This document shows positions 4,109 to 22,448 of a stretch of DNA of 35,271 nt, piece by piece; the first letter of the stretch is position 1, and every line of letters starts with the position of its first letter. Origin of the DNA: Chloroflexota bacterium (GTDB taxonomy: Bacteria > Chloroflexota > Anaerolineae > J102); NCBI GenBank assembly GCA_013151415.1, contig JAADII010000076.1, positions 1 to 35,271 of the forward strand. The letters run 5' to 3'. Made by a program: the position numbers and the translations under genes. The notes under the pieces are model-generated. The model saw only the letters and a list, made by a program, of their open reading frames with translations, was not told where the DNA came from and did no database searches.

Positions 4109-4202
4109 AGAAACACTATCTGAGCGCCCAACAGACCCCAAGCGACTAAGCGACCTCGTCTTGTTGTTCATGGTCTATCGTCCACCGGCCAACCAACCAA
4201 CC

Positions 4203-4799: not shown

Positions 4800-4810
4800 A
4801 ATGCTGCTCC

Positions 4811-4840
4811 GAAAATAAGCGTCCAATGTCCAATGTCCGA
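4811..4840 (-). repeat. Right imperfect inverted repeat flanking rluE (heptamer block)
   Basis: Read on the minus strand this is TCGGACA / TTGGACA / TTGGACG followed by CTTATTTTC. It matches the left copy at 4203-4231 with about six differences over 30 bases. It is followed outward by TGGTCTAT (complement of 4879-4886), as on the left side. Confidence 0.6.
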
Positions 4841-5656: not shown

Positions 5657-5663
5657 CGTCTAA

Positions 5664-5893: not shown

Positions 5894-5924
5894 TTCAACT
5901 CAACGCTCATTTGCAAACGTTCTC

Positions 5925-5959
5925 AACCGTCCGGCGGCTTGCCCGCCGGACGGTTTTTT
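5925..5959 (+). terminator. Strong intrinsic terminator
   Basis: AACCGTCCGGCGG (5925-5937) pairs with CCGCCGGACGGTT (5943-5955) around a five-base loop, and the stem runs into six T residues (5954-5959). It separates the NUDIX gene and the gene remnant from the kinase promoter. Confidence 0.9.
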
Positions 5960-6011
5960 GTCAGGGATAGGCGACGCCACTCTTGATTTGCTGGCTGATC
6001 GGGCTGAATTG

Positions 6012-6020
6012 TGTTATAAT
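6012..6020 (+). promoter_or_regulatory. Extended -10 promoter for the two-component operon
   Basis: TGT followed directly by TATAAT (6015-6020) is a perfect extended -10 element. Transcription would start near 6027, giving a leader of about 115 bases before the kinase start. No clear -35 was seen, as is usual with extended -10 promoters. Confidence 0.6.
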
Positions 6021-6141
6021 CGAGATGGCTGTGTAAGGTGTATTCCATTCCCCCGTCCCGCCGCTGAGGAAGCCCGCCTTAAATCAATCTTCAGCCATTG
6101 CAGGCTTCACTGCATTTTTCTTCTTCGGAGGAATGGTTAGC

Positions 6142-7968
6142 GTGCCTATTTCCACTCTCAGGAATCTGAGTTCGCCGGTCAAACAGTTCATTACCATACT
6201 GGTCGCGTGTTTGTTGTTGTTTGCTTTTCTTGCGCCCCTCGGTCTCATGGTGATGCGCCATGTACAGGGTTCCCTGGATCGCGAACTGTATCATCAGATG
6301 CTCACCATGCGCCGATGGTTTGTCGACACAGGTTATTACCTGCGAGATGAAGCGCGCTTGTTGGCGGAGTTTGACGCGTTCGAGGATACACTAAATTCGC
6401 ATGACGAGATGCAATTGCGCCGTTTGATGGCTCTTTACCAAAGAACGCATGGTTCGGATGGGATTTATTTGATCACTGATGCGGCCGAGGTGCTCACGGC
6501 GTCTGCATCGCCGCGACTGGACGAGGCCACTGTCATTGGTCTGGATATTGTGCGTAAGGGGTTTAATGGCCAGACCCTGGCCGAAATGATAACCGCTGAT
6601 GGAAAGATTTGGCTGATGGCCGTGGCGCCGCACGCCAAGCCGGATGGCGTGATCGACGCGGTCTTTCTCATCACTCGGGAGGTCGATCCCGCATTTTTAC
6701 AGACATTTTCCCATGGTTTGAATGGAACGATTGCTTTAACAGACGGCGTTGTGCAGGTTCGTTCGAGTTCGGTGGAGATGCCCGAGGAAATCTCCGCTTC
6801 ACTTCATCAGGCGGTGGAAAGCCAAACGGGAGAAATGCTTCAGCCCTATACAGTTCGCTCCGATGGCGTCTCGTATCGCGTGCTTGCGGCCCCGCTCATG
6901 GTGACGCATTCGGGATCATACGCCATCGCTCTGATCAAAAATGCAGAAAGCGTCAATGCCGCGCTTTGGCGCAGTGTGCAATGGGGCGCGGTGTTGGGCG
7001 TCATCTCCATTGTATTGGCGCTTGCGTTGGTTCAATTCCATATTGTCAATATCTTTCGTCCACTTCGTTCTCTCACCAAATCCACGAAACGGATAGCAGC
7101 CGGGCATCTTGATGAGCCGCTCGAAGTTTCTGGAGTGGCCGAGGTTTATGATTTGGCCGTCAACTTTGATCGCATGCGAGCGCGTTTGAAGGCGTTGCTG
7201 GAACGGGAGCGCATGTTGGCTGAAAGTTTGGAGCTTCAGGTTGAGAAAAAGTCGCAGGCGTTGGCCGAAGTGTGCCGCGTGCGCGAACATCTGTTGGCGC
7301 AGCTTATTTCCTCGCAAGAGGAGGAGCGACGGCGCGTCTCGCGTGAATTGCACGACGCTACAAGTCAGGAATTGGCGAATCTCATTGTTCGGTTGGGCGC
7401 GCTTTCCCGCATGGTCGAGGATGAGGAGGTCTTGAAGCAGATCAATGTGTTGCGAACGCAAGCCGTTCAGACCCTTGAAGGCGTGAACCGAATCGTATTG
7501 GATTTGCGGCCGGGTCTATTGGATGAATACGGTTTGGTGCCGGCTGTGCATTGGTACGCGGATGCGCGGTTGGAATCGACCGGGATATCTGCTAGAATGG
7601 ATGTGAAAGGTTCTCCTCATGAGATTTCCTCTTACGCTCAGGCCAGCATTTACCGAATGGTTCAAGAAGCTATCAACAATGTTGCACAGCATTCACAGGC
7701 AAGCGAGGTGGTTATTCGCATTGACTGGCGGGCGGAGGAATTGCAGATCGAGGTGGAGGATGACGGGATCGGTTTTGATACAGAAACAGCCTTTGACGTC
7801 GCCAATGGTCATTATGGTTTGTTAGGGATAAGAGAGCGCGTGGCGTTGTTGAGCGGTGCGCTTGATATTCAATCATCTCCGGGCGCTGGCACGCGCATCA
7901 TTATTCGCGTGCCCTATGCCCTGAACACCGCGAGGAAAAATGGCAAAGATCAAAGTTCTGCTGGTTGA
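6142..7968 (+). CDS. Membrane sensor histidine kinase, NarX/HisKA_3 type
   Basis: This kinase autophosphorylates and should pass phosphate to the regulator encoded next. A first membrane helix (about residues 14-37) and a second (about 276-298) enclose a roughly 235-residue extracellular sensor region of Cache-like size. A HAMP segment (FRPLRSLTKSTKRIAAGHL), a coiled coil, and the HisKA_3 box EEERRRVSRELHDATSQEL follow, with His404 as acceptor. The ATPase domain has an N box (QEAINNVAQHS) and a G1 box (EDDGIGFD). I start at GTG 6142, because GGAGG at 6127-6131 lies ten bases upstream; the ATG at 6133 is one base from that site and too close. The 3' end overlaps the response regulator by 29 bases, so the two are co-expressed. 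The signal sensed is unknown. Confidence 0.9.
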   Translation: MPISTLRNLSSPVKQFITILVACLLLFAFLAPLGLMVMRHVQGSLDRELYHQMLTMRRWFVDTGYYLRDEARLLAEFDAFEDTLNSHDEMQLRRLMALYQRTHGSDGIYLITDAAEVLTASASPRLDEATVIGLDIVRKGFNGQTLAEMITADGKIWLMAVAPHAKPDGVIDAVFLITREVDPAFLQTFSHGLNGTIALTDGVVQVRSSSVEMPEEISASLHQAVESQTGEMLQPYTVRSDGVSYRVLAAPLMVTHSGSYAIALIKNAESVNAALWRSVQWGAVLGVISIVLALALVQFHIVNIFRPLRSLTKSTKRIAAGHLDEPLEVSGVAEVYDLAVNFDRMRARLKALLERERMLAESLELQVEKKSQALAEVCRVREHLLAQLISSQEEERRRVSRELHDATSQELANLIVRLGALSRMVEDEEVLKQINVLRTQAVQTLEGVNRIVLDLRPGLLDEYGLVPAVHWYADARLESTGISARMDVKGSPHEISSYAQASIYRMVQEAINNVAQHSQASEVVIRIDWRAEELQIEVEDDGIGFDTETAFDVANGHYGLLGIRERVALLSGALDIQSSPGAGTRIIIRVPYALNTARKNGKDQSSAG

Positions 7969-8593
7969 CGATCATGCTATCTTGCGAGCAGGGCTTCGCT
8001 CTTTACTGGCCACCTACGATGATATTGAAGTGGTGGGCGAGGCCTCTAGCGGTGAAGAGGCGATTCGCAAAGTGCCCGAGCTCAAACCCGATGTTATCGT
8101 CATGGATGTGCTCATGCCTGGGATGAATGGGCTCGTGGCCACTCGTTACATTCTGGAGAAATATCCGGACGCGCGTATTCTCATGCTCACCCAATATGGA
8201 AACAAAGAATATGTGTTGCCATTATTAGAAGCCGGCGCGGCTGGCTATGTTCTCAAGCAAGCCGCCGATACCGATTTTGTCAAAGGCATTCGAGCGGTTT
8301 ATGAAGGAAATTCCTATCTATATCCACCCATCGCCAAACTTGTGCTCGAGGCGTTGATGGCTGGCGAAGATGCGTCTGATCCTGAGCGAATGCTTACTCC
8401 TCGCGAACGCGAAGTGCTTGTCTTGGTGGCGCAGGGCTACACCAATAATGAGATTGCTGACATCCTTTACATTAGCCCCAAGACGGTGGACGTGCATCGC
8501 ACTCGCATGATGAACAAACTGGATCTGCATAATGTTGCGGAAATCGTTCGTTATGCGGTGCGAAGACACTTGATTGATCCGTATGAGGAATAA
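7940..8593 (+). CDS. NarL/FixJ-family response regulator
   Basis: This 217-residue transcription factor is phosphorylated by the kinase just upstream. The receiver has the acidic pair Asp10-Asp11, phosphoacceptor Asp56 ([13 protein letters not shown]), Thr84 and Lys106 (GYVLK). A LuxR-type helix-turn-helix occupies about 150-210 ([20 protein letters not shown], then [15 protein letters not shown]). ATG at 7940 follows GAGGA at 7932-7936 and lies inside the kinase reading frame. Likely targets are unknown. The nearest candidate site is the palindrome at 8781-8798, upstream of the receiver-like gene that precedes the cytochrome operon. Confidence 0.93.
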
Positions 8594-8780
8594 AGGAGAC
8601 GAAGGCGCGGAAGCAAACCATTTCCATCTACATCGACATGAGCAATCCTCACAATTTGTCTGTTTTTTCATGAAAACGTTTAAGTTGACGTCGCGTTTTG
8701 GATGACATAATAATGTAGGTGAGCTGGTGAACGACATGGTGGGTGAAGTCGGGGTTGAATAGGGGGGTTATCCTACGCCG

Positions 8781-8798
8781 ATAAGGTGATCACCTTAT
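8781..8798. promoter_or_regulatory. Perfect 18-bp palindrome, candidate operator
   Basis: ATAAGGTGATCACCTTAT is its own reverse complement. Its centre lies about 43 bases upstream of the start expected from the extended -10 at 8818-8826, the usual position of a class II activator site. A dimeric LuxR-type regulator such as the one encoded at 7940 could bind here; that link is inference. Confidence 0.55.
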
Positions 8799-8817
8799 TC
8801 TCGCGGGCATATTATAG

Positions 8818-8826
8818 TGTTACAAT
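8818..8826 (+). promoter_or_regulatory. Extended -10 promoter for the receiver-like gene
   Basis: TGT followed by TACAAT (8821-8826) forms an extended -10. Transcription from about 8833 would begin just before a short hairpin (8837-8857) and leave a leader near 100 bases. Confidence 0.5.
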
Positions 8827-8931
8827 ATTCACAAATGGGCTCCTCTAGTAGGAGTCCATTTATGAAATGAGGTTTCGCATTTTTGCACCTTCATATTTGT
8901 AACCCGTAAGCCCCATGCAGCTCCTTGGGCC

Positions 8932-9387
8932 ATGACGGATATCAAGGTATTGATCCTTTGCCACTCACCCACTGTTCGCTCCAAGATCGAAGAACTGCTC
9001 TTGGCATGCGCCGATGTACGCATCGTTGGATCCACTGGAGCGCACGAAGATATCCTCAGGGTGGCGAGACGCACTCAGCCGGATGTGCTTGTTATTCATG
9101 CCGCTGGCTCTGAAGGTTTTCAGGCTGATCTGTTGTTTCGGTTGAAACAAGTGCAGCCGAACTTGAAGACCTTGATGTTGGGCTGCCCACCCGATCAGGC
9201 TCGTATTCATTTTGCTGAATTAGCGCCCTGGGGCCTGAGAGGCTGGATCTGCAATTGGGAAGGATCGAGTGAGTTGGTCGATGCTCTCTATGCACTCAGA
9301 AACGATGATTTCTACCTTTGTCCTGTTGCAAGCCACGTCTTAGTTGACGCTTATCGAGATATGCACCATCAGCTTGTCCGCAGATAA
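8932..9387 (+). CDS. Stand-alone degenerate receiver-domain protein (pseudo-receiver)
   Basis: These 151 residues align along their whole length with the receiver half of the regulator at 7940: KVLILCHSPTVRSKIEELL against [19 protein letters not shown], and FYLCPVASHVLVDAY against [15 protein letters not shown]. Every phosphorylation residue is changed: Asp10-Asp11 to Cys-His, Asp56 to His56, Thr84 to Gly84, and the conserved Lys to Asn. There is no DNA-binding domain. It may work by phosphate-independent protein contacts, for example by pairing with the intact regulator, but this is inference. ATG at 8932 is the first start in its open frame; no good ribosome-binding site precedes it. It lies between the two-component pair and the cytochrome operon. 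Confidence 0.7.
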   Translation: MTDIKVLILCHSPTVRSKIEELLLACADVRIVGSTGAHEDILRVARRTQPDVLVIHAAGSEGFQADLLFRLKQVQPNLKTLMLGCPPDQARIHFAELAPWGLRGWICNWEGSSELVDALYALRNDDFYLCPVASHVLVDAYRDMHHQLVRR

Positions 9388-9528
9388 GTATAAGCGAGAT
9401 AGAAGTTTCTAAAGGCCGGACTTTCAAGAGCGCCAACCCGAGTCCTTAACATGGCCCTTTCGTAATCAGACGCCACCCCATAGCGAAGACGTCTCGATCC
9501 CTACTTTCACCGACGCCCCCGACGAACA

Positions 9529-11118
9529 ATGAGTCGATTTTCGTTTCGCAGAAAGCGCATTGCAGAGGAGAATGTCCCCGAGAAAGCCATAGAAGCTCCC
9601 AAGCGACGGCGCCTTCCGGTTGTGCAGATTGATTTCAACCAGCCTTCACATCGTCGCATACTCACCTTTGGTTTTTTGGGTTTGCTTCTGTCGGGCGTCA
9701 TTATCCTCGTGGGTGGCATCAAGACATACGAATATACCGAAAGCGCTGAATTTTGCGGGCAAACTTGTCATGTGATGACGCCCGAATTCGTTCGCTTCGA
9801 AGAATCGCCCCATGCTAACGTCGATTGCGCCATGTGTCATATTGGGCCTGGGGCCTCCTTCTTTATCAAGTCCAAAATCGATGGCCTCAAGCAAGTCTAT
9901 GCAGTGATGACGGACTCGTACAGTCGGCCTATTCGGAGTCCGGTGCATGATCTTCGCCCCGCTCGCGAGACGTGTGAAGAATGCCATGCACCCACCATGT
10001 TCAAGGATAATATTATCAAGATAATCAAGCATTACGATAACGACGAGGCCAATACGCCGGTGCAATCCACCTTTATTTTGAAGATGGGTGGTTGGCAAGA
10101 GGAGGGTGGAGTTAGGGAGGGCATTCATTGGCACATTTCCAATCCTGTTTACTATATTCCCGCCGATGATCAACGACAGGTGATCCTCTGGGTGGGAATG
10201 GAACAGGAGGATGGAACGCTAAAAGAATTTTACTCGCGCGACATGCTCAATATGGCGTGGGGCTCTTTTGTAGAAGAGGCTCGCGCCGCGGGCAAAGTGC
10301 GGCAGATGGATTGCATCGACTGCCACAATCGCACGGCTCATTTCATCCCGCCACCCGAGGTGGTTGTTGACAAGAGCATCGCAGAAGGACGTATTTCGGC
10401 TGATCTTCCTTTCATTCGGGCCAAGGCCGTGGCCTTATTGAGCAACGAGTACGCCTCGAGCGCCGAAGCTTACGCCGCTATTGATGCATTGGCCGATTAC
10501 TATATGCGCATGCAGCGACGCATCACATCCAAGGATGGCGATGACCAAGAATATCCACCCATCTTTGCGAAAACCTATGATTTCCAAGCCAAAGTGAACG
10601 CCAGCCTGGATGAAATTAAGCGCTTATATTCAGAAACGCATTTTCCTGAAATGCGCTTGAACTGGAAGACCAATCCCAACAACGCCCGACATAATCCCTT
10701 TCCGGGTTGTTTCCGATGTCATGACGGCAAGCATGTTTCTCTTGATGAAAATGGGAACGAAGTCGAGGTTATCAGCGTCAAGTGCAATCTTTGCCACACT
10801 GTGCCCATTGTAGGCCGGGGCGACGACATGCTGGTCGAAGCGCCGGTCGTGGTGGGGCAAGTCCCCCCCTCGCACTCCGACTTCAGCTGGACTATCGAGC
10901 ATCGATCTGTGCAGGACGCCCAATCAGAAGGGTGCTACGATTGTCATGGCCAGCGATTTTGTAGCAATGGCGTTTGCCACAATCTTTCTCATCCTCCCGA
11001 CATGCTCTATTCCCATGCCGAGGAATATCGCAAACGCGGAGGTCAAGTGTGCTACACCTGTCACCAGGATGTGCTCTGTAGTCGTTGTCATCCCGGCGGC
11101 ATTATCACCAACCCCTAG
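9529..11118 (+). CDS. Membrane-anchored ten-heme c-type cytochrome (NapC/NirT-like N-terminus)
   Basis: The 529-residue protein has a basic cytoplasmic tail, one membrane helix (about 45-63), then a large outer domain. Ten heme-attachment motifs are visible: CGQTCH at 76 (C-x3-CH, followed by V-M as in NapC/NrfH heme 1), CAMCH 100, CEECH 149, CIDCH 262, CFRCH 394, CNLCH 418, CYDCH 468, CSNGVCH 478 (C-x4-CH), CYTCH 508 and CSRCH 517. The N-terminal layout is that of quinol-oxidising NapC/NrfH-type cytochromes, so it probably draws electrons from menaquinol. The rest of the protein is not one I can name. No ribosome-binding site is evident before ATG 9529. It heads a run of six genes; the TPR gene starts 20 bases after it. 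Confidence 0.85.
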   Translation: MSRFSFRRKRIAEENVPEKAIEAPKRRRLPVVQIDFNQPSHRRILTFGFLGLLLSGVIILVGGIKTYEYTESAEFCGQTCHVMTPEFVRFEESPHANVDCAMCHIGPGASFFIKSKIDGLKQVYAVMTDSYSRPIRSPVHDLRPARETCEECHAPTMFKDNIIKIIKHYDNDEANTPVQSTFILKMGGWQEEGGVREGIHWHISNPVYYIPADDQRQVILWVGMEQEDGTLKEFYSRDMLNMAWGSFVEEARAAGKVRQMDCIDCHNRTAHFIPPPEVVVDKSIAEGRISADLPFIRAKAVALLSNEYASSAEAYAAIDALADYYMRMQRRITSKDGDDQEYPPIFAKTYDFQAKVNASLDEIKRLYSETHFPEMRLNWKTNPNNARHNPFPGCFRCHDGKHVSLDENGNEVEVISVKCNLCHTVPIVGRGDDMLVEAPVVVGQVPPSHSDFSWTIEHRSVQDAQSEGCYDCHGQRFCSNGVCHNLSHPPDMLYSHAEEYRKRGGQVCYTCHQDVLCSRCHPGGIITNP

Positions 11119-11138
11119 TTAGGAGGGGAGTCTTCACT

Positions 11139-12119
11139 ATGTCCACTACCAACGGTTCCTTGCCAAAAAAGGATTTGTTGAGCACACAAAACATTCGTCG
11201 CGCGATCATCATTGTGGGCGCGTTGCTGCTCGTGGTTGTGGCCGCGTTCAGCGCTTACTACTATTGGGATCGTTTTTTGCCGCGCGGCGATTTGTCTCCC
11301 ATCGAGATGGCCATCGAAGAAGCCCAGCAGGCGGTTAAGGAGAACCCGCAAGACCCTGATTTGCGTCTCGATTTGGCCCGAATTTACTACGAAAATCGCA
11401 TGTATGAAGAGGCGCTGGAGCAGGCCGGACAAGTGCTCAACGCCTTTCCAGACAACAACGACGCCCTTTTGATTGTTGGTCTGTCCAACATTCGCCTGGA
11501 CCAACCGGCCGAAGCCATCCCGCCTCTCGAAAAATTCATCGAATTGCGCAAAGATCATTCCACCGCCAGGGCTGATGTGGTGTTGGAAATGGTCTACTAT
11601 TTTGTTGGCGAGAGTTACATGAAGCTTGGCCAAAGCGCTGAAGCCGTGCCGCCTCTGGAGGCTGCGTTGGAGATCACGCCCACCGACGCGGACGCACTAT
11701 ATCAGTTGGGTCTGGCGAAGCAGTCTCTGGGTGACCCCGAGGCCGCGCTGACATATTATCACAAAGCGGTGCGCCTGGTTCCAGATTTCACCGAAGTCTA
11801 CGAGGGCATGGTGGAGTGTTATACGGCCTTGAACATGCCCGCGCATGTCGAATACGCCAAAGGGATGAAGGCGTTCGGAACCCGAGATTACGAGTTGGCC
11901 AAGAATCATCTGCTAAAGGCGGTGGAAGACCTGCCCGATTTCGCGCCTGCGCTATTGGGCCTTGGCCTTACATACGAAAAATTAGGCGAACTCGAGACCG
12001 CGGCCGAGATCATCCAAAGAGCGCTCGATTTGAATCCGCATGATTTCGCCACTCGACAAGCGCTAGGCCGAGTGCAAGCCAGTTTGGATGCTTTGAGACT
12101 ACAGGAGCAATCGCAATGA
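11139..12119 (+). CDS. Membrane-anchored TPR protein of the cytochrome operon
   Basis: An N-terminal helix (about residues 20-42, AIIIVGALLLVVVAAFSAYYY) anchors a soluble domain of about six tetratricopeptide repeats; clear units are AVPPLEAALEITPTDADALY and AALTYYHKAVRLVPDF. TPR domains are protein-contact scaffolds and occur in cytochrome c maturation factors, so assembly or docking of the neighbouring cytochromes is a reasonable guess. I chose ATG 11139, preceded by AGGAGGGGAG (11121-11130); the open frame extends to 11085 but would overlap the upstream gene. Its stop codon overlaps the next start (ATGA, 12116-12119), so translation is coupled. Confidence 0.8.
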   Translation: MSTTNGSLPKKDLLSTQNIRRAIIIVGALLLVVVAAFSAYYYWDRFLPRGDLSPIEMAIEEAQQAVKENPQDPDLRLDLARIYYENRMYEEALEQAGQVLNAFPDNNDALLIVGLSNIRLDQPAEAIPPLEKFIELRKDHSTARADVVLEMVYYFVGESYMKLGQSAEAVPPLEAALEITPTDADALYQLGLAKQSLGDPEAALTYYHKAVRLVPDFTEVYEGMVECYTALNMPAHVEYAKGMKAFGTRDYELAKNHLLKAVEDLPDFAPALLGLGLTYEKLGELETAAEIIQRALDLNPHDFATRQALGRVQASLDALRLQEQSQ

Positions 12120-13306
12120 GCGCCACATTGAACCCTCCTCCACAATCTGATCTCAATGCCGAAGATAAACGCAAGCGAAAGTTCTATCTATTCGCTTTAG
12201 GCGGCTTGCTGACGTTGCTTTTTTTCGTCAGTTACATGTTTGCCAGCTATTTGCGTCAGCCCGAACCATTGCCCGAACTGCTTCCTGTGAACGTTGAGGT
12301 CGATTATCCGCCTCATTATCTATTCTCCATCTATGAGGTGGAAGGCCCCGTTGGCGTGGCCTTGTCACCCGAAGGCGATCGCCTCTATGTGACCGAAATA
12401 CGCGGGGAGCGGTTGATCAAGATGTTTGATATCGACGGCAATCTTCTGGGCTCGTTTTCCACGCCTGGCGCAGGTCCGGGTGAACGCGCTCCGGTGTACA
12501 TAGCCACCGACTCGCTCGGTCGCGTGTATGTGACGGATCGATTGCAACACGCCATCGTGGTGTTCGATCGAGACGGCAATTACCTCGACTCTATTCTCAA
12601 CCCCACTCTGACCCTGAGCGAGTATGTTTTCAAACATACGGAAGCGGAGCCGACGCCCGGCTCGTTTAGCTACAATGTTTTCGAGACGGAGGTCTATTAT
12701 GAGGATGCTGCGGGTGAACAACAGACGTTGCCGCGTCCTGATCGCTCTCCGTGGGCCCCGTTGGGCGTTCGTTTCGATTCCAATGATCGGATGTTGTTGA
12801 CCGATGTGATCGAAACGCGACACTCGGTGTGGCTCGCTCCCAGCAGCGTCATCAGGGCTTCTGATTGGCTGGATTTTGATCTGTCTGCATTGCAGTTCGG
12901 CATTTCTGGCCAAGGAAATGGGCAGCTCCAATTCCCTAACACGGCGGTGGTCGATTCTCAGGGCAGGATCATTATTTCTGATGGCAACAACGGGCGTCTC
13001 TCGGTCTGGAATGACCAGGGCGGCTTTCTCTTCCATTTTGGCTCCGGTAGTGGCGATGGCGCGTTGAGTCTGCCGCGCGGCATTGCCATCGATGACCGAG
13101 ATCGCCTACATGTTGTGGATGCGGTGGGCCAGAACGTGAAGGTCTATGATTTTTCTGGTCCTGAACCCAGTTTTCTCTATACATTTGGCGATATGGGCGT
13201 TCAAAATGGGCAATTCAATTATCCTAACGACATTGCCCTGGATGCCAGCGGGCGTCTGTACATCGCCGACCGAGAAAACAACCGCATCCAGGTTTGGTCC
13301 TATTGA
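12116..13306 (+). CDS. Membrane-anchored NHL-repeat beta-propeller protein
   Basis: The 396-residue protein has one N-terminal membrane helix (about 24-45) and an outer domain with NHL-type repeats such as YPNDIALDASGRLYIADREN and LPRGIAIDDRDRLHVVDAVG. About six blades would close a propeller. NHL proteins often sit beside multiheme cytochrome genes and may organise complexes or bind ligands; no enzymatic residues were recognised. The start overlaps the TPR stop by four bases. A 192-base gap with its own ribosome-binding sites separates it from the first secreted hexaheme cytochrome. Confidence 0.85.
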   Translation: MSATLNPPPQSDLNAEDKRKRKFYLFALGGLLTLLFFVSYMFASYLRQPEPLPELLPVNVEVDYPPHYLFSIYEVEGPVGVALSPEGDRLYVTEIRGERLIKMFDIDGNLLGSFSTPGAGPGERAPVYIATDSLGRVYVTDRLQHAIVVFDRDGNYLDSILNPTLTLSEYVFKHTEAEPTPGSFSYNVFETEVYYEDAAGEQQTLPRPDRSPWAPLGVRFDSNDRMLLTDVIETRHSVWLAPSSVIRASDWLDFDLSALQFGISGQGNGQLQFPNTAVVDSQGRIIISDGNNGRLSVWNDQGGFLFHFGSGSGDGALSLPRGIAIDDRDRLHVVDAVGQNVKVYDFSGPEPSFLYTFGDMGVQNGQFNYPNDIALDASGRLYIADRENNRIQVWSY

Positions 13307-13372
13307 TGCATCCCGCAGGATGACCGGAGGGCGGCAACGCTCGAGGCCCCTGACGGATGTCCTATACGCAAA

Positions 13373-13391
13373 AAGGAGGTGGTCGATGTAA
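13373..13391 (+). promoter_or_regulatory. Perfect Shine-Dalgarno followed by an AUG-UAA start-stop
   Basis: AAGGAGGT (13373-13380) is followed five bases later by ATG (13386-13388) and immediately TAA (13389-13391). It lies 108 bases before the hexaheme cytochrome start, in the leader or inter-cistronic mRNA. Such minimal frames can hold or recycle ribosomes; a regulatory role here is inference. Confidence 0.4.
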
Positions 13392-13498
13392 AAAAGATCA
13401 TTGTTCACCGTTTACGACACGAATATGCAGACATGTCGTTACACTTGTCTCAACATGGGTAATCACCCAGAAACAGGAAAGGAAAGGAGAGAAATACC

Positions 13499-14404
13499 AT
13501 GAAAAAACTACTCATCGCATCCCTGTTGGTTGTAGTGTTGTTGCTTCTTGCAGTCAACGTCGCTTCAGCCAACGGCGGGCCTCACGGCGACTATGCCGCC
13601 GCCACTGATGCCTGTGCTGGCTGCCACCGCGCTCACACCGCAAAAGCAGACAAACTGCTTAAGGAAGCCGGAAAGACATACGATTTGTGCATCTCCTGCC
13701 ACGGCGCGGCGGGAACCGGCGCCAACACCAACGTTGAAGATGGCGTCTATCTCTCTTCGCGCGATGACGCCGCCGGAGACGGCAACCATGGCGCTGGCAA
13801 CACCCCGGACAACAGCCCGCTTCTTGGTGGAGGCTTCGTCAATTATAAAGGCGTAGCCGTCACTTCCACCCACGATCCCACGGGCGTTGTTTCGGGCGCT
13901 TGGGGCGCTGGCGATGTACGCGGGCAGATGGGCACCATTGACCGAGCGCTTGACTGCGCCTCCTGCCACGATCCCCATGGGTCGCCCAACTATCGTATTC
14001 TCAAAGAGACGATCAACGGCGCCACCGTTTCGGTCGCCCAGGTTGATGAAGGCGCGAGCAAAGACTACGATACGGCGAATTGGAACACCGATCAGAGCAA
14101 TGTCTGTGGCGCGTGCCACAACCCGTATCAGCATGCAGGCGCCGACACCACCAGCGGCACCTACACCCACCCGGTGGATCGAAACAACAAGGCCGAGTAC
14201 ATGCCGCCTGAATATACGGTCGGCGGCGTCACGGTGAGCGTGCCTCTGGCTGCCAACAACTACATCGTTTGCCAGACTTGCCACCTGCCCCACGGCACCT
14301 CGGCCCAGATGGCCGGCTTTGCGGATGGCGCTGGCCCCGCTGGCGACAGCGCTTTGCTGCGCGAAGATAATCGCGGCGTGTGCCAGGCCTGCCACAAGAA
14401 GTAG
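13499..14404 (+). CDS. Secreted hexaheme c-type cytochrome
   Basis: A clear signal peptide (residues 1-24, cleavage after VASA) precedes a 277-residue mature protein with six CxxCH motifs: CAGCH 39, CISCH 64, CASCH about 153, CGACH about 203, CQTCH about 258 and CQACH about 294. Pairs such as CASCHDPHG fit the doubled-CxxCH type of multiheme protein. The N-terminal module HGDYAAATDACAGCHRAHTA is nearly repeated in the next two genes, so the three arose by duplication. No catalytic site was recognised, so electron transfer is the likely role. AAGGAG at 13484-13489 sits nine bases before ATG. The protein has no membrane anchor after cleavage and would be free in the wall or bound to partners. 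Confidence 0.88.
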   Translation: MKKLLIASLLVVVLLLLAVNVASANGGPHGDYAAATDACAGCHRAHTAKADKLLKEAGKTYDLCISCHGAAGTGANTNVEDGVYLSSRDDAAGDGNHGAGNTPDNSPLLGGGFVNYKGVAVTSTHDPTGVVSGAWGAGDVRGQMGTIDRALDCASCHDPHGSPNYRILKETINGATVSVAQVDEGASKDYDTANWNTDQSNVCGACHNPYQHAGADTTSGTYTHPVDRNNKAEYMPPEYTVGGVTVSVPLAANNYIVCQTCHLPHGTSAQMAGFADGAGPAGDSALLREDNRGVCQACHKK

Positions 14405-14450
14405 CCTTCAGCGCGATTCCCCCTCGCGACTGTTGCGCACCACCACAAAT

Positions 14451-14492
14451 GGCTCCTTCCCCGAGTCTATCTTGGGGAAGGAGCCAAGGAGG
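14451..14492 (+). promoter_or_regulatory. Inter-cistronic hairpin abutting the ribosome-binding site
   Basis: GGCTCCTTCCCC (14451-14462) pairs perfectly with GGGGAAGGAGCC (14474-14485) around an 11-base loop. The next bases are the AAGGAGG ribosome site (14486-14492). There is no T-run, so this is not an intrinsic terminator. The CTCCTT of the left arm could pair with either the AAGGAG of the right arm or that of the ribosome site. Confidence 0.6.
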
Positions 14493-14499
14493 CGGGATC

Positions 14500-15504
14500 A
14501 TGAAAAGGCGTTTTCTTGCCGTTATTGCCGCCATCCTTCTTTTGATGGTCATTACGCCTGCGCATGCAGACAATGGGCCTCATGGCGGTTATGCCGCGGC
14601 CACCGATGCTTGTGCGGGCTGTCATCGCGCACATACGGCGCAGGGCGAACCCTTGTTAATGGCTGGCGCGGCCTATGATCTGTGCATGACCTGCCACGGC
14701 GCCACTGGCAGCGGCGCCGACACCAACGTCGTTGACGGCGTATATTTGCAGAGGGACAACCAGACCGAGCCATCTGACGAAGGGGTTGTCAACCGTGGCT
14801 TGAAAGGAGGAGGTTTTTCATACGCTCGCATGGACTCGAGCTGGACCGGAACAGCCACGGTCGCCCCTGTCACTTCTGCGCACATCTGGAACGATGGGGC
14901 CGGCGTGGTGTGGGGCGGCGGCGCCATCGGCTCTGGCGCGGGCGATAGCATCAATCTCTCCTGCATCTCTTGCCATGACCCACATGGAAACGCGGGAGAC
15001 AACAATGGCCCCACTTATCGCATCCTCCGCTCCACTCCCATTGGTTCGGGCTCTGGCGCCACGAGCGTGCCCGACGAAAACCAAAAGAATTACACCATCG
15101 ACGACAGCTCGGGCAAGTATTTTGGTCAGTCTTACAACAGCGACATATTCAGCCAACTTGCATATTGGTGCGCCGAATGTCATGATCGCTATTTAGCTCC
15201 TTCGGGCAGCGGCGGTTCAGACTCTGGCGACCCGATCTTCGCTTATCGGCACATCTCTGTGGGAAGCGGCTGCGGTTGCCATAATATTCATGGTGGTCCG
15301 CCGCCCACAGGCAACCCTGAATATGCTCATAAACCCGTTTCTTGCCTGACTTGCCACGTTGCTCACGGCAGTTCGGCCGTTATGACGGGCAATGCGGGTC
15401 AGGCGCCCTGGCCCGATGGCGCCACTTCTCCCAGCGGAGACGCGCGAAGCGCTCTCTTGCGAGTGGATAATCGAGGGACATGCCAGTTGTGTCACGATAA
15501 ATGA
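14500..15504 (+). CDS. Second secreted hexaheme c-type cytochrome
   Basis: The 334-residue paralogue of the preceding cytochrome has a signal peptide (1-23, AHA then D), and CxxCH motifs at CAGCH 38, CMTCH 62, CISCH about 154, CAECH about 224, CLTCH about 282 and CQLCH about 328. An extra Cys-Gly-Cys-His near 257 (GSGCGCHNIHG) resembles a heme site but is one residue short. The first 70 residues of the mature protein match the preceding gene closely. ATG 14500 follows AAGGAGG at 14486-14492; an open frame continues upstream to 14380 but has no ribosome site and would lack a signal peptide at its start. Its stop overlaps the start of the DUF11 fusion gene. Confidence 0.87.
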   Translation: MKRRFLAVIAAILLLMVITPAHADNGPHGGYAAATDACAGCHRAHTAQGEPLLMAGAAYDLCMTCHGATGSGADTNVVDGVYLQRDNQTEPSDEGVVNRGLKGGGFSYARMDSSWTGTATVAPVTSAHIWNDGAGVVWGGGAIGSGAGDSINLSCISCHDPHGNAGDNNGPTYRILRSTPIGSGSGATSVPDENQKNYTIDDSSGKYFGQSYNSDIFSQLAYWCAECHDRYLAPSGSGGSDSGDPIFAYRHISVGSGCGCHNIHGGPPPTGNPEYAHKPVSCLTCHVAHGSSAVMTGNAGQAPWPDGATSPSGDARSALLRVDNRGTCQLCHDK

Positions 15505-18500
15505 TGACGCATCGTTGCAAGCCCATTATCGCACTCAAATCGTTGCAGGTCTCCGTTGCCATCAAAATAGCGCTGGCCATTTTGATGGGTTGCTTGGGGG
15601 TGGTCCTGGTGTTTGCGCCGGACATCTGGGCCGCCCCATTGGGGCAGGGCGGGGGAGGGTCTCATCATGGAAATTACACGGCAACCACCGCGGCTTGTGC
15701 AAAGTGCCATCGCGCGCACACAGCGAATCGAGATAATCTGTTGATAAAGGGTGGCGGTGGGGGAGGCGCCTTGATCGCGCAAAACAACGATGCAGACTAT
15801 CGTATTGCTGAGGACAATCGATTTTGCAATACATGCCACAATGGCACTGGGGCGTCTACAGCCATGCCCGTATCCGCGCACGGCAACGGCGATTTCGCTG
15901 CGCGTTCCGGCGACGCGTTTTTGTTGAAATGCGTCGATTGTCATGATCCTCATGGCTCAGGAAATTTGTTCGATATCAAAGAATACGTGTTCTCCAGCAC
16001 AGGCGAGCCAGTCGGCCCAGTGATATTGACCTCTCGCACAGGTCTCAATTCCTTTGACGATGGCGTAAGTCCGCCCAGCGCTCGTCTTTGCGTGACTTGC
16101 CACGAAGGCAGAGCGGGCATGAACCATGTGGGCGGGGCCGGCCATGAAGGCAATTTCGATTTTAGTGGTGAAGACTGCCTGGTTTGCCATCCACATAGTG
16201 CGGATAGACGGCAGGAGACCAACGACGGCTTCATGCTTGCCCCCAATGTGCGTGAATTGCTGATCGCCAGAGCGCGAGTCGATTTAGGGGTGAGTCAATC
16301 GCTCTCGTCCGATCTTCTTGTCTCCGGAACGCCCTACACCTACACTTTTGTGGTGACAAATTTTGGCCCTCAGGATGCTTGGGGCGTTGTATTCACCGAC
16401 ACCTTGCCCGCGGGCGTTGAGTTGCTCAGTGTGGACAATGCCATCGGCGCCAATTGTTTCGCCTTTGAGCGCGAGGTGCAATGCGCTTTAGGCGATATGC
16501 GCGCAGGCGAAAGCGTCTCTTTGTCTCTGCATGTTTTACCTGCATCCCATCTTTATGGTCTCATTCCCAATCAAGCCGAGGTGCGCGCGGTGCAGGCCGA
16601 CCCCGCCCCTCAGAACAATGTCTCGATATCCGAAGATTCCATTGTGCGTCATGCTGATCTCAGCCTCGATCAAACGGTGACTCCGTTTAGCGTTCTGGCC
16701 GGAGAGAAGTTGACATATACATTGACGATTGCCAATCTCGGGCCCTCTGTCGCTACGGATGTCATTGTGGAAAACACGTTGCCAGAGGGCGTCGAATTCA
16801 TTGCGGCCACGGCTTCGCAAGGGGCGTGCGCGTATGCAAATGGCGTTGTCAGCTGTGATTTGGCGGTTCTTCCGGCGGGAAAAGGCGCAACGGTGGTCAT
16901 CGAGGCCCTGGCTAGTGATATGAACGCGATCTTGGCGAACCTCGCGCGTGTATCTGGCCAAGATTATGATCCCAATCCCGCCAACAATTCGGCCAGAGCG
17001 AGTAGCGAAGTCGTTTGGCAGGCCGATCTCTCCGTTACTCAGAATGCCAACCCATCGCCGGTTGAGGCAGGAACGCTTCTCACATACACCATCGTTGCAA
17101 GCAATGCGGGGCCCTTGACCGCCACCAACACGCGGCTTCGCGACGCCTTGCCAGCCAGCGTTGAGTTGCTGAGCGCATCCCCAAGCCAGGGGCTTTGCAC
17201 CGCCAACGACAACAACGCGGTCACTTGTCGTTTGGGTGATCTGGCCCAAGGCGCTCAAGCCGTCGTTTCATTGGTCGTGCAAGCGCCAAAATCGTCAGAT
17301 GTGCTCACGAATGTGGTTCACATCGCGGCCGAGCCTGAGGACCCCAACCCGGTCAACGATTCATCCACTCTTGAAATCTCTGTTTACGACGGCCCCGATT
17401 TGGCCGTGGTCGCTGCAACCGATCCCGCTGTTGCAACCCCTGGGCGAAGCCTAAAGTACGTCATCGATGTCATCAATATGGGATATACGCCGGCCAACCG
17501 CGTCACCCTGGTCAATGCCATGCCCGCGGACGTGACGCTTGTTTCGGCCACCTCGACCAAAGGCCCTTGTTACGTCAATGCAGATAAGATCACATGCGAA
17601 ATTGGCGCGATGGCGGGAAAGCAAAAAGAAACGGTCACTATTTTGGTTGATGTCTCCGAAGAAGCTGTGGGGGTTTTGGTCGATTCCGCGACGGTTGATG
17701 TTGATGGCGTTGATCCCGATTTGGAGAACAACGTGGCCACCATCGAAACCGAGATTGTCCCGGAAGCTGATCTATCTATCACCAAAGAAGTTTCATCCAA
17801 TGTCGCATCAATCGGCGATGTGCTGAGCTACACCTTTGTCGTGACCAATGCCGGACCCAGCCTGGCCACCAACGTCATGCTGCATGACACATTGCCCCTG
17901 GCGCTTTTGGTCGAGTCGGTGACCACAAGTCAGGGCGAGTGTGAATTAATCGATGATGATCTTTACTGCAATTTGGGTTCATTGGCAAAGGGCGCTGAGG
18001 CCATCGTGATATTGCGAGCAAAGGTGCTGATCGAAACCTCCTTTCTAACCAATACTGTGTTCGTCGTCTCAGATGTGCGCGATCCCGATGAAAGCAACAA
18101 CTCGGCTAATGTGGTTGTTTCCACTGCGCCTCAAACGCCCACATTGACGCCCTTGCCCAGCCCCACCAGGGTTATCACGACAACCCCGACAGCGACTTCC
18201 ACCTCGACGCCCACCTCCACGCCCGTCGTGATGCAAACCCCAACCGCCACCCCAACCGCTGTTTTCACGGCCACCCCAACTCCAACGCCGTCGCTCACGC
18301 CCACGGTGGGTGGGACCCCGACCGTAGGCCCCACCAAGGCGCTCACGCCCACACCAGCCATCGATCCAACTCCCACCCCCACGATTGGCCCCACCTCTTC
18401 ACCCAGCCCAACGGCAACGCCAACTTCCGCCAACGCGCTGGAGCCGACGCCAACTCCGACGCCCGCGGCGTCGCCTCAATTGGCTGTTGATTTGTGGCTC

Positions 18501-18542
18501 TTCTTTGCGCGGTTATCGGTTTTCTTTCTCCGCATCGCATGA
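15501..18542 (+). CDS. Secreted pentaheme cytochrome fused to five DUF11 repeats and a Thr-Pro stalk
   Basis: This 1013-residue protein starts with a long signal peptide, then a heme module homologous to the two upstream cytochromes, with CAKCH 66, CNTCH 109, CVDCH 144, CVTCH 197 and CLVCH 226. Five DUF11 domains follow at about 258, 383, 506, 630 and 754, each with an ADLSxTxxxxP opening, a YTxxxxNxGP core and a Cys-containing tail. Residues about 876-990 are a Thr-Pro-rich stalk, and the last 20 residues are hydrophobic (LWLFFARLSVFFLRIA). I infer that the stalk crosses the cell wall and the C-terminus holds the membrane, displaying the hemes outside; the end helix contains Arg and is not a strong anchor. 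The start overlaps the previous stop (ATGA); ATG 15504 is an alternative. Confidence 0.82.
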   Translation: MMTHRCKPIIALKSLQVSVAIKIALAILMGCLGVVLVFAPDIWAAPLGQGGGGSHHGNYTATTAACAKCHRAHTANRDNLLIKGGGGGGALIAQNNDADYRIAEDNRFCNTCHNGTGASTAMPVSAHGNGDFAARSGDAFLLKCVDCHDPHGSGNLFDIKEYVFSSTGEPVGPVILTSRTGLNSFDDGVSPPSARLCVTCHEGRAGMNHVGGAGHEGNFDFSGEDCLVCHPHSADRRQETNDGFMLAPNVRELLIARARVDLGVSQSLSSDLLVSGTPYTYTFVVTNFGPQDAWGVVFTDTLPAGVELLSVDNAIGANCFAFEREVQCALGDMRAGESVSLSLHVLPASHLYGLIPNQAEVRAVQADPAPQNNVSISEDSIVRHADLSLDQTVTPFSVLAGEKLTYTLTIANLGPSVATDVIVENTLPEGVEFIAATASQGACAYANGVVSCDLAVLPAGKGATVVIEALASDMNAILANLARVSGQDYDPNPANNSARASSEVVWQADLSVTQNANPSPVEAGTLLTYTIVASNAGPLTATNTRLRDALPASVELLSASPSQGLCTANDNNAVTCRLGDLAQGAQAVVSLVVQAPKSSDVLTNVVHIAAEPEDPNPVNDSSTLEISVYDGPDLAVVAATDPAVATPGRSLKYVIDVINMGYTPANRVTLVNAMPADVTLVSATSTKGPCYVNADKITCEIGAMAGKQKETVTILVDVSEEAVGVLVDSATVDVDGVDPDLENNVATIETEIVPEADLSITKEVSSNVASIGDVLSYTFVVTNAGPSLATNVMLHDTLPLALLVESVTTSQGECELIDDDLYCNLGSLAKGAEAIVILRAKVLIETSFLTNTVFVVSDVRDPDESNNSANVVVSTAPQTPTLTPLPSPTRVITTTPTATSTSTPTSTPVVMQTPTATPTAVFTATPTPTPSLTPTVGGTPTVGPTKALTPTPAIDPTPTPTIGPTSSPSPTATPTSANALEPTPTPTPAASPQLAVDLWLFFARLSVFFLRIA
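18127..18470 (+). repeat. Thr-Pro codon repeat (stalk-coding, low complexity)
   Basis: Irregular repeats of ACN-CCN codons encode the proline/threonine stalk of the DUF11 fusion protein. Similar shorter tracts occur in the genes at 14 (near 2070-2115) and 20409 (near 20505-20625). They are coding, not a separate element. Confidence 0.7.
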
Positions 18543-18764
18543 TGCGGATCGATGCTGAGGCCTTTGCGGCCGTTTTCAACAACATCTATACTGCACTTGG
18601 CGGTTTTCAGTGGTGAAAAAGCGAAGAGGATGAGCTCGTTCAGCTCTGCGCGACTTATCTCGTCCGTCGCGTGTTGATCGAGCCAATAGCGAGTCGGCTC
18701 CATCACTTTTCCCGGTTGCGGCGTGCACAGCTTGCGCGGAGATGGCGTGAATCGCGGGGTGATC

Positions 18765-18773
18765 TGGTATAAT
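18765..18773 (+). promoter_or_regulatory. Extended -10 promoter giving a leaderless mRNA
   Basis: TGG followed by TATAAT (18768-18773) is a consensus extended -10. The expected start, seven bases on, is at 18780-18781, the A of the metalloprotease ATG. There is no ribosome-binding site. Confidence 0.65.
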
Positions 18774-18780
18774 ATTTTTC

Positions 18781-20058
18781 ATGGTTCGCGCACATCGACG
18801 CATATACTTGCTTTTCATTGTTTTTGCTCTACTGTTGTTTCTGTGCGTGGCGACGGGGGCCGAGGTGGCGCAGCGTTTCAAGCGCAGCTCGCCCACGCAG
18901 ACCGCAGCGGAACGCTTGGTGGAAGCGTATCGTTTCGATCTGCTTCGCTATGAGATTTCGGCCATCGCGGAAAAAGGGGTTGACCTCACGCGCAGATTGG
19001 GAAGTCGGCTCACGCCAGCAGAGCAACAGCGACTGGTCACCGAATACAACCGCCGCGCCAACGAGCTCTCGCAACTGGAACGCGAGATCACCCGCATCTA
19101 CGCAGACCCCAACATCGCGGATCCCGCTGCGGCGAGCGCGGAATTGCGCCGCAAACAGACGAACATGCGCGCGCTTCAGCGAGATGTGCAGTCTCTGGTC
19201 GAGGCTATTCTGGAAAAGCAAGTGACCGACGCGTTGGCCCAATTGAATTTGACCACCGCGGGGATGGTCTGGCCGCCGGTTCGCTTCACCTTTGATGATC
19301 TGCCCGACTTTTTAATCGTCTCTCCTCGAGAACGCATCGAGTTGGAGGCGGGGGTGCATTTGCGCGGAGATTTGGATATGGCCCAGATCGAATCCATCGA
19401 AGACGCGGTGGCGCAAGCGCTGAATCGCTCTACGCTTGTCGAGAGCTTGGGCGGCCTGGGCGTTTGGCCAACATTGGTCAGTGACGAGGCCAGCCTGGCG
19501 TGGATTCTCAGCACCATCGCCCATGAGTGGGTTCACACCTATCTCGTTTTCTTCCCCCTGGGCCAAAATATGTTTGATAGCGCGGAAATGAACACCATTA
19601 ACGAAACCGTGGCCGACATTGTGGGAGATGAGGTGGGATGGCGTGTGGCCACAGAAATATATGGATTGGATGTCCCGCCGCCTGAACCGCCCCCTCCTCC
19701 AGACCTGACCCCGCCTCCGCCTGATCCTGACGTCTTTGATTTTCGCACCGAGATGCGACGCACGCGGTTGCGCGTGGACGATCTGCTGGCCGAAGGGCGA
19801 GTGGAGGAAGCCGAACAGTATATGGAAATGCGACGTCGCGAGTTTGTGGCCAATGGTTATCCCATTCGTAAGCTCAATCAGGCCTATTTCGCTTTTCATG
19901 GCAGCTACGCCACGACCGCGGCTTCGTCCGATCCCATCGGTCCCAAACTGTGGGAGCTACGCGAGCGAACGCCCGACCTGGCCACCTTTCTTCGAGACGC
20001 GCGCAGCATTCGCGAGCCGGCCGATTTGGACGCGCTATTGGAAGAGCGAGCACAGTAA
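18781..20058 (+). CDS. Membrane-anchored HExxH zinc metalloprotease, family not recognised
   Basis: An N-terminal membrane helix (about residues 8-25) leads into a charged, helical, coiled-coil-like region (40-145), then a domain with the zinc motif HEWVH (His248, Glu249, His252) and, 22 residues later, NETVADIVGDE, whose Glu275 is a plausible third ligand. This layout is that of gluzincin-type metallopeptidases. A Pro-rich linker (PPPEPPPPPDLTPPPPDPD, about 301-319) separates a C-terminal helical tail. Substrate and family name are unknown to me. The gene is predicted to be leaderless, starting at 18781 directly after an extended -10. It follows the cytochrome run but has its own promoter. 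Confidence 0.75.
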   Translation: MVRAHRRIYLLFIVFALLLFLCVATGAEVAQRFKRSSPTQTAAERLVEAYRFDLLRYEISAIAEKGVDLTRRLGSRLTPAEQQRLVTEYNRRANELSQLEREITRIYADPNIADPAAASAELRRKQTNMRALQRDVQSLVEAILEKQVTDALAQLNLTTAGMVWPPVRFTFDDLPDFLIVSPRERIELEAGVHLRGDLDMAQIESIEDAVAQALNRSTLVESLGGLGVWPTLVSDEASLAWILSTIAHEWVHTYLVFFPLGQNMFDSAEMNTINETVADIVGDEVGWRVATEIYGLDVPPPEPPPPPDLTPPPPDPDVFDFRTEMRRTRLRVDDLLAEGRVEEAEQYMEMRRREFVANGYPIRKLNQAYFAFHGSYATTAASSDPIGPKLWELRERTPDLATFLRDARSIREPADLDALLEERAQ

Positions 20059-20408: not shown

Positions 20409-22448
20409 ATGACACACGGATCAAGACCTGGTTTGCTCATCTTGCTTTCACTGCTCTTGGCGTTGGCGCTCGCGGCCTGCGGCGGTAAGGACGAGACGCC
20501 CGCGACCCCCACGGTTGCTCCTTCGCCTCTCGCGGCCACCGCCACGCCTGTTCCGCCTACGCCCACGCCGCTTCCAACCTCGACGCCCACTTCAGAACCC
20601 ACGCCCACGCCCACGCCCATCGTCGCGGCGGGTTGGTATACCTATGTCAACGGCAATGCTGTATTGGATATTGCTCTGCACGACGGCCTTTTGTGGGCTG
20701 CGACCGCAGGTGGAATTGTTGTTTGGGATCCGGCTTCGGGAGAAAAAGGCTCCTACACCACTGCCGATGGTTTGCCCACCAACACTGTAAGAGCCATTGG
20801 TGTTTGTCCCCTTCCCGAACCTCGCATCATCGCCGGCACAGAGTATGGTCTTTCATTCTACGAGCCGGCAACCGACGCCTGGACGCTGATGACGCCGGAC
20901 AATAGCGGCATGACGTTGTCCAAGGTGATATCCCTCGCCTGCGGTCCCGGCGAAAACACTTTGACCATTGGTTACAATAAGGGCGTAGACATCTACCACG
21001 CGGACACAGACGAGTGGGAATTCTTCGACGACAAGAACGGACTGGTCTCTTATTTTGTGGACCGGGTGAGCGTGATCGGCGACGAAGTGTGGGCTTTGTC
21101 TCCACCCTTCGGCGTCTCCGTCATTCATGCAGACCGCAGCATCACCAACTATACAGAAGAGAGCGACATTCCCAACGATAACATCTTGGCCGTGGCTGGT
21201 GACGAAAAGGGAAACGTCTGGATGGCGGCCTCCGATGGTTTGATCAAGTTCGGCGAAGGCGCATGGACAATGTACAATAAAGATAATGTCGAGACGTTCC
21301 TCTTTATCGGTTCCCTCGTTGGCGTGACCGTCGACGCGGACGGCGCGGTTTGGGCGGGCAATATATTTGGCAGCATATGCCAGTTCGACTCCGCCACAGA
21401 AACGTGTCTGGCCGTGTATGAGAATGAGCCCGGCATGCTCGGTGGTCTGATCGGACTGACGAGCGATGACTCGGGCAATGTTTACGCCTACGACAAAGAC
21501 GAGGGCGTTAGCATGTTCGATGGCGAAAGCTGGCGAGCGTTCCAACGTGATGAGTTGGCCGCGTCCAATAACTACAACGCCATCGCTCAATTGCCCGACG
21601 GAACCATCGTTGTGGGAGGGAATTTCGGCATCCAGCGGTTTTCGGCCTACGCCGCGGATGCAAATTGGGAGCAAAACGATATGGAAGTCGATGGAGCCAA
21701 CATCTTCTACGTGACTTCCGAGGGCCTTTGGGTGGGCCATTATGAGGGCGCCAGCTTCTACGACTTCGACGCCGAAACCTGGACGCATGTGGAAAGAGCG
21801 GACGAGCCGGGCCAGGGCATTTACAAAAGCGACGTCATCGCCGTTGCTGAGGATGGCTCGGGCCGAATGTGGTTTGGCACAGACGACGGACTGACGATTT
21901 GGGATGGCGAAACGTTTACATACTTTGATCTGCTGGAGGAAGCGGAGAGGGCCGAAGGCAAATGGCCGCGCATTGTTTACGCGTTGTTATTCGATGGTCG
22001 CAACATGTGGGTTGCCACAGACGGAGCCCTTTTCCGATTCGATGAGTCTGATGAAATAACGAAATGGGACCAGGAGTTGCCGGACATGGGCGTCTACCTG
22101 TTTTCGCCTCGTGCGCTGGCGCTGGACTCGGATGGCGCCTTGCTTTTAGCGATCAAACAGAAGTTGCTCAGATATGATGCAGAAGAGGACGCTTTTTCGG
22201 AAGTGACGGAGGCGAAGGACGCCATATCCTCGATCCTGACCACCGAGACGGGTGAGATATGGCTGGGACTATATCGAGGAGGCGTGGTTCACTACGATGG
22301 CGAGACATGGTCGTCGATGACCACTCTGGATGGTTATGCCCTGCCCTCCAATCGTTTTGGTCGTCAAGGCATTCTTGTGGATGACCTGGGAACCATCTGG
22401 TTCGCGGGGTATGAAGGCGGTTTGGTTCGCTTTGCGCCGGGGCCGTGA
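20409..22448 (+). CDS. Lipoprotein with two-component-regulator-type beta-propeller repeats
   Basis: The 679-residue protein has a lipoprotein signal (lipobox LAAC, lipid-bearing Cys24), a Thr-Pro linker (about 33-75), then repeats ending in W-[GA]-x-[TN]-x-x-G patterns such as GRMWFGTDDGLTIWDGE and GTIWFAGYEGGLVRF. These match the propeller found in the sensor part of large hybrid two-component proteins, here on its own without a kinase. It should sit on the outer face of the membrane and may bind a ligand or a partner. GGGAGGTG at 20396-20403 supports ATG 20409. It is a single-gene unit. Confidence 0.83.
   Translation: MTHGSRPGLLILLSLLLALALAACGGKDETPATPTVAPSPLAATATPVPPTPTPLPTSTPTSEPTPTPTPIVAAGWYTYVNGNAVLDIALHDGLLWAATAGGIVVWDPASGEKGSYTTADGLPTNTVRAIGVCPLPEPRIIAGTEYGLSFYEPATDAWTLMTPDNSGMTLSKVISLACGPGENTLTIGYNKGVDIYHADTDEWEFFDDKNGLVSYFVDRVSVIGDEVWALSPPFGVSVIHADRSITNYTEESDIPNDNILAVAGDEKGNVWMAASDGLIKFGEGAWTMYNKDNVETFLFIGSLVGVTVDADGAVWAGNIFGSICQFDSATETCLAVYENEPGMLGGLIGLTSDDSGNVYAYDKDEGVSMFDGESWRAFQRDELAASNNYNAIAQLPDGTIVVGGNFGIQRFSAYAADANWEQNDMEVDGANIFYVTSEGLWVGHYEGASFYDFDAETWTHVERADEPGQGIYKSDVIAVAEDGSGRMWFGTDDGLTIWDGETFTYFDLLEEAERAEGKWPRIVYALLFDGRNMWVATDGALFRFDESDEITKWDQELPDMGVYLFSPRALALDSDGALLLAIKQKLLRYDAEEDAFSEVTEAKDAISSILTTETGEIWLGLYRGGVVHYDGETWSSMTTLDGYALPSNRFGRQGILVDDLGTIWFAGYEGGLVRFAPGP

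Follow-up and report, generated by a model that had tools for sequence, protein, structure and literature searches.

The window, by which we mean the whole stretch of 35,271 nucleotides analysed here (contig JAADII010000076.1 of a Chloroflexota bacterium), carries six co-directional genes, referred to as A to F, which are preceded on the same strand by a pair of regulatory genes. The features on which the discussion draws are located as follows:

5925..5955, + strand: terminator-like hairpin (13 pairs, 10 of them GC, then TTTT), a consensus match only
6133..7968, + strand: HK, membrane histidine kinase with HAMP, HisKA_3 and HATPase_c domains (Pfam)
7940..8593, + strand: RR, NarL-type response regulator with receiver and LuxR HTH (Pfam)
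8932..9387, + strand: receiver-like protein between RR and A, about 50% conserved in L029, L032 and L033
9529..11118, + strand: A, predicted one-TM decaheme, ImcH family, with NapC/NirT N-terminal domain
11139..12119, + strand: B, membrane-anchored TPR protein, TM 22-40 (Pfam; 21 of 21 loci)
12116..13306, + strand: C, membrane-anchored NHL beta-propeller, TM 25-43 (Pfam; 21 of 21 loci)
13499..14404, + strand: D, predicted secreted hexaheme, OmcS-like (hhalign; 12 co-aligned His)
14500..15504, + strand: E, predicted secreted hexaheme, OmcS-like (hhalign; 12 co-aligned His)
15501..18542, + strand: F, OmcS-like pentaheme without heme 6, followed by five DUF11 and a Pro/Thr-rich tail
15618..16235, + strand: F heme domain (residues about 40-245), with 11 of 12 OmcS-type His positions
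16263..18215, + strand: F DUF11 repeats, approximate limits (PF01345, five stretches, E 1e-111)

The operon contains 27 heme motifs (25 CXXCH, one CX3CH and one CX4CH), ten of which are found in A, six in each of D and E and five in F. Four-base overlaps join B to C and E to F, the other junctions being gaps of 20 (A-B), 192 (C-D) and 95 bases (D-E). The start of B is likely at 11139 rather than at the longest-ORF start of 11085, and that of E is probably at 14500, the longest ORF beginning at 14380. A simple hydropathy scan predicted a single N-terminal helix in each of A, B and C and, in D and E, segments resembling signal peptides; Pfam recognised NapC/NirT in A, TPR in B, NHL in C and doubled CXXCH domains in D, E and F. 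Recounting returned the same motif total and the same two overlaps as the initial annotation, and its six co-directional genes stood at their coordinates, although it had overlooked the upstream HK/RR pair and the receiver-like frame at 8932-9387, which lie on the same strand. The terminator-like hairpin separates HK, RR and A to F from an upstream NUDIX gene. Secreted propeller proteins (Reg_prop; LVIVD repeats) flank the operon at 20409-22448 and 14-4108 of the window, with no evidence of belonging to it.

Conservation of the gene set was assessed by scanning 20 genomes of the same family and 298 of the same class for A, which yielded 15 proteins at 52-82% identity, the next group lying at or below 43%; together with six loci from named organisms (Chloroflexota, Anaerolineales) these give 21 distinct loci, spread over several Anaerolineae families. 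At all 21, B, C and at least one D/E-type hexaheme adjoin A on the same strand (tblastn with the window's proteins), the order A-B-C-D/E being kept in 18, with B, C and E preceding A in the other three. The A proteins form a single clade among 109 homologues (SH-aLRT 100%), and the distances of B, C, HK and RR are correlated with those of A (Mantel r 0.60-0.77, 0 of 2000 permutations). When 400 genomes of the phylum were searched by alignment, A-type matches (E <= 1e-150) were confined to the same class, and the relatives of the operon are Chloroflexota, the type of host envisaged earlier. Since gene order is kept in relatives, the cluster is more than chance, and on this comparative evidence A-B-C-D/E is a conserved unit. 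The scattering of the genes in relatives that the initial annotation had named as evidence against its own reading was not seen, and the conserved order it anticipated holds for A-B-C-D/E but not for the strict set with F: a DUF11-stalked F was found at five loci, all of the window's own family, and at the other loci its position is taken by other large multihemes, the heme domain being F-like in four of these.

Directly before A, 13 of the 21 loci carry a ten-heme protein with a C-terminal membrane segment together with a b561 cytochrome, and the distances of this b561 module likewise follow those of A. The ancestral set would usually have included this pair, which is lost or absent in the window's operon. 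In L032 the two genes (10779-12077 and 9869-10792) lie between the regulators and A. Two reading frames of the set are interrupted, the A gene of G249 (L063) by an internal TAA and the b561 gene of G188 (L055 6798-7670) by a split into two frames; either sequencing error or decay may be responsible.

An HK/RR pair stands ahead of the operon at most loci; HK is found upstream in 14 of the 21 and covaries with A (Mantel r 0.77), and RR is 88-89% identical in those same-family loci that reach it; the pair is the probable regulator of the operon. The receiver-like frame at 8932-9387 occurs in the same place in L029, L032 and L033 at 49-52% identity and matched no convincing Pfam family; it evolves far faster than RR (about 50% vs 88%).

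A contains eight CXXCH motifs, one CX3CH (CGQTCH, residue 76) and one CX4CH (CSNGVCH, residue 478), and its NapC/NirT domain is recognised by PF03264 with an E-value of 3.2e-11. It is 35-43% identical over about 400 aa to homologues in Geothrix, Geobacteraceae, Acidobacteria and others; in those from outside Chloroflexota the predicted helices number two or three and the motifs six or seven as a rule, and in those of Chloroflexota there is a single helix, with nine or ten motifs in most cases and more in some. Where the ImcH type has three N-terminal transmembrane helices A has one, but the family includes one-helix exceptions from Anaerolinea thermophila and Intrasporangium (PMC6295460), so that three helices are not universal in it and A was filed as belonging to a one-helix subgroup. 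Judged by these features, A belongs to the ImcH quinol oxidases as a member with one helix, which is in keeping with the earlier proposal of a NapC/NrfH-like ten-heme protein as the point of quinol entry, the function being that expected from the family. Among solved structures its relatives by sequence are NrfH and, weakly, cytochrome c3; an AlphaFold2 model of A (pLDDT 45.6) was too low in confidence for a fold search. The A proteins of L061 and L069 have CGLCH (CXXCH) as first heme motif, in place of the CX3CH of the family.

When 17 D/E proteins were aligned, six CXXCH motifs and six further invariant His were found (in E, the latter are H28, H45, H128, H162, H251 and H289), so that every D/E heme can be bis-His ligated. 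OmcS was not among the PDB matches up to E 1 when D or E alone was used (phmmer), and the D/E profile reached it at 1.5e-5 with the best stretch out of register, for which reason profiles were then compared over their full length, with a ranking as control. Three Geobacteraceae hexahemes had been found with the D/E profile, one of them matching OmcS (6ef8) end to end (E 8.5e-125), and a profile of these three OmcS-like proteins was compared (hhalign) with 361 multihemes. Beyond the Geobacteraceae proteins themselves, the best matches were the operon hexahemes, aligned over the whole profile, E scoring 118.3 and D 68.8 at full length. End to end, the 41 operon D/E hexahemes, including six outside the N-terminal-motif split that were assigned by locus, scored 59.5-121. 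The best non-operon scores were 47.5 among proteins with 5-8 hemes and 250-560 aa and 63.6 among longer multihemes; as E-values of single hhalign pairs are uncalibrated the control is the ranking, in which the weakest D/E (59.5) stands below the best longer multiheme (63.6).

In the joint alignment exactly 12 columns hold His in at least 13 of the 14 OmcS/D/E rows, six of them belonging to the CXXCH motifs and six lying elsewhere; all 38 D/E proteins that were compared contain CXXCHxxH. At about 300-334 aa, D and E are shorter than mature OmcS (407 aa), whose long inter-heme segments they are missing, and in most loci two unlike hexahemes stand side by side. By profile alignment, D and E are full-length OmcS relatives of low identity; the two secreted hexahemes named in the initial annotation are, by this ranking, of the OmcS kind rather than generic. 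The AlphaFold2 model of E (pLDDT 35.5) was too low for a fold search. A bioanode survey that used BLASTP for OmcS homologues kept only Geobacter and one Coriobacteriales sequence, its Anaerolineales genomes contributing none (PMC7399161). The 12 heme ligands of OmcS are His without exception; 11 belong to the subunit itself, and the remaining one, at heme 5, is supplied by a neighbour (PMC6584659). The CHxxH after heme 1 is kept in D, E and F. We take the His of this motif to be the neighbour-donated ligand of OmcS. Whether OmcS filaments are needed physiologically is itself disputed (PMC11077965), and homology alone is therefore limited in what it allows to be claimed.

F has five CXXCH motifs and six distal His, as against the six and six of a full OmcS-type hexaheme. 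In three F proteins 11 of the 12 His columns of the OmcS type are retained; only the sixth CXXCH is missing, and it is there that the DUF11 stalk begins. The heme domain was accordingly filed as that of a derived OmcS relative, and not as a member. Its count, with five hemes, five distal His of their own and one putative donor His, is what a chain-ending subunit might be expected to have. The earlier picture of F reaching through the wall by means of its stalk was not supported, since the hydrophobic stretch at its C-terminus is weak and is not kept in L029, and the hydropathy scan gave no clear conserved membrane or wall anchor. ARMA_0580 of Ardenticatena (430 aa, 7 hemes) was considered as a possible homologue of F.

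The association of B and C with hexahemes extends beyond the operon. Trios of B, C and an OmcS-like gene were found in G030, G133 and G168 (L188-L191; hhalign scores 95.7-116.3), with a small tetraheme protein (169-187 aa), a 13-16-heme protein and a surface-type protein of 7+1 hemes as neighbours; an A-type gene is near only one of these four loci, and belongs to the distant group. In a Geobacteraceae genome an NHL gene follows an omcS-like gene, and NHL genes have been described alongside outer-surface cytochromes in Geoalkalibacter and Desulfovibrio ferrophilus (PMC12016550, PMC9769857). Judged from this gene neighbourhood, B and C belong with the hexaheme and not with the quinol oxidase, and because they accompany OmcS-like genes even at loci where A is missing or far away, a role in assembly may be inferred for them.

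With regard to the cell envelope, no Omp85 family member was found in the genome, which is 97.7% complete, and the absence of Omp85 has likewise been reported for Ardenticatena (PMC5808234). There is no barrel gene in the operon, and as far as the operon and the genome-wide Omp85 search reach, no outer-membrane partner of the porin-cytochrome (Mtr/Pcc) kind is seen; both the earlier observation that no porin-cytochrome complex is present and the presumed lack of an outer membrane are in keeping with this. The adjacent reductase that would have favoured a conventional role was not recognised within the window either (Pfam), molybdopterin oxidoreductases being present elsewhere in the genome and none on this contig. 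CXXCK occurs neither in A, D, E and F nor in the 38 D/E relatives, and a distal His is available for every D/E heme, leaving no open or Lys-ligated catalytic site. Cytochrome c assembly genes are present. The same genome holds a second cytochrome cluster (L026, G000:C12:8000-27999, genes at 2505-19232), in which HdrA/HdrB/HdrC-like genes occupy one strand and genes for 18-, 22-, 34- and 9-heme proteins and a b561 the opposite one, the cytochrome-side strand also carrying a distant ImcH-type paralogue of A.

On the whole we find it rather probable, from the gene content, that the operon encodes an extracellular electron transfer system for a cell without an outer membrane. A, as an ImcH-type decaheme with one N-terminal helix, would oxidise menaquinol, and D and E would receive the electrons and form a continuous heme chain through the wall, which, if the conserved ligands are a guide, would most likely be stacked head to tail as in OmcS with the His of a neighbour completing a heme. 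F may be a surface or terminal subunit handing electrons to minerals, electrodes or partner cells, the linkage of B (TPR) and C (NHL) suggests assembly or docking factors of the hexaheme chain, and HK-RR would control expression of the operon. In most relatives the ten-heme and b561 proteins, as a split CbcL-like module, could provide a second quinol entry. Electrons would flow outward. A more specific version, in which Chloroflexota build OmcS-type filaments across the wall, F is their terminal (tip or base) subunit with DUF11 replacing heme 6, and TPR-NHL is a general assembly machine of OmcS wires, is possible but doubtful.

The same extracellular route could also be served by D, E and F acting singly, as monomers packed into the wall that carry electrons without forming an OmcS-type polymer. 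Proteins shorter than OmcS, lacking its long inter-heme segments and kept as two unlike hexahemes in most loci, might be expected of such carriers, which we nevertheless regard as somewhat unlikely, since a monomer would have no obvious need for the OmcS set and yet all 12 ligand positions and CXXCHxxH (38/38) are kept. The direction of flow raises a separate issue: heme chains conduct both ways and the cultured Chloroflexota isolate Ardenticatena gives anodic as well as cathodic currents (PMC5808234), so that the conduit might run inward or sideways, for uptake from Fe(II), cathodes or partner cells or for interspecies transfer, with A as a quinone reductase; this we consider unlikely, as ImcH homologues were implicated only in quinol oxidation in a 2018 survey (PMC6295460). 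That the operon instead serves conventional respiration of nitrite, tetrathionate or sulfite, with D, E and F as the reductase or its partners, is very improbable, because the local matches of the D/E profile to octaheme nitrite reductases (E about 1e-6) are partial, CXXCK is lacking, each D/E heme has its distal His and no reductase gene was recognised in the window, even though A does match NrfH (TIGR03153, E 6e-15, below cut-off). A reductase role for the operon was rejected, there being no CXXCK and no adjacent enzyme.

The reading that we prefer, an outward route in a cell without an outer membrane, bears on the open question of how electrons pass across a wall without a porin-cytochrome complex, in a phylum that is common in anode and sediment communities. 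Profile comparison here points to OmcS relatives inside a regulated operon with a putative quinol oxidase, and the gene set names candidates for the wire, a possible end subunit and assembly factors, the last two of which were not found described in the literature for Geobacter filaments.

The initial annotation knew of no described system of this kind, a claim that has to be withdrawn in view of two precedents. The ImdcA-PdcA-CwcA-OcwA system of Thermincola shares the single membrane, a membrane decaheme as proposed quinol oxidase and the lack of a porin (PMC7911101, PMC6703420), as well as a hexaheme OmcS homologue, CwcA, for which a stacked wall chain has been proposed and which was modelled on OmcS (PMC7911101), plus a separate surface cytochrome. 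It differs in that here all the parts are gathered in one operon, which also includes TPR and NHL proteins, a two-component system and two hexahemes, and in that the place of the nonaheme OcwA at the surface would be filled by a DUF11-stalked, OmcS-like pentaheme, the two systems being likened by description. The extracellular electron transfer clusters of Dethiobacter alkaliphilus, whose cytochromes are upregulated under Fe(III) or thiosulfate reduction, bring multihemes, CymA-like ones among them, together with NHL- and TPR-repeat proteins (PMC10376724); their cytochrome set and order are different and no pentaheme-DUF11 protein is described, the NHL/TPR likeness again being one of description.

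Taken singly, the components have relatives of their own. With OmcS of Geobacter (6ef8/6nef; PMC6584659), D and E have in common six hemes in order, 12 co-aligned His, a C-terminal heme and the motifs GG(D/G)F, CHDPHG and YR-L; in contrast with it they are shorter, of low identity and from a cell without an outer membrane, in which the operon holds two paralogues and, on a stalk, a relative with five hemes. A shares with the ImcH family the NapC/NirT N-terminal domain and the CX3CH first heme (PMC6295460), differing by one transmembrane helix against three and ten heme motifs against about seven. The ten-heme and b561 pair of the relatives is, likened by layout, in effect a split CbcL (nonaheme plus b-type quinol oxidase); it is absent from the window's operon, a nine-heme/b561 pair being found in the C12 cluster of the same genome. 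As far as the literature showed, what appears to be new in comparison with these systems is the single regulated operon and its distribution among Anaerolineae, together with the kinship of Chloroflexota proteins (D and E) with OmcS and a five-heme relative that bears a stalk.
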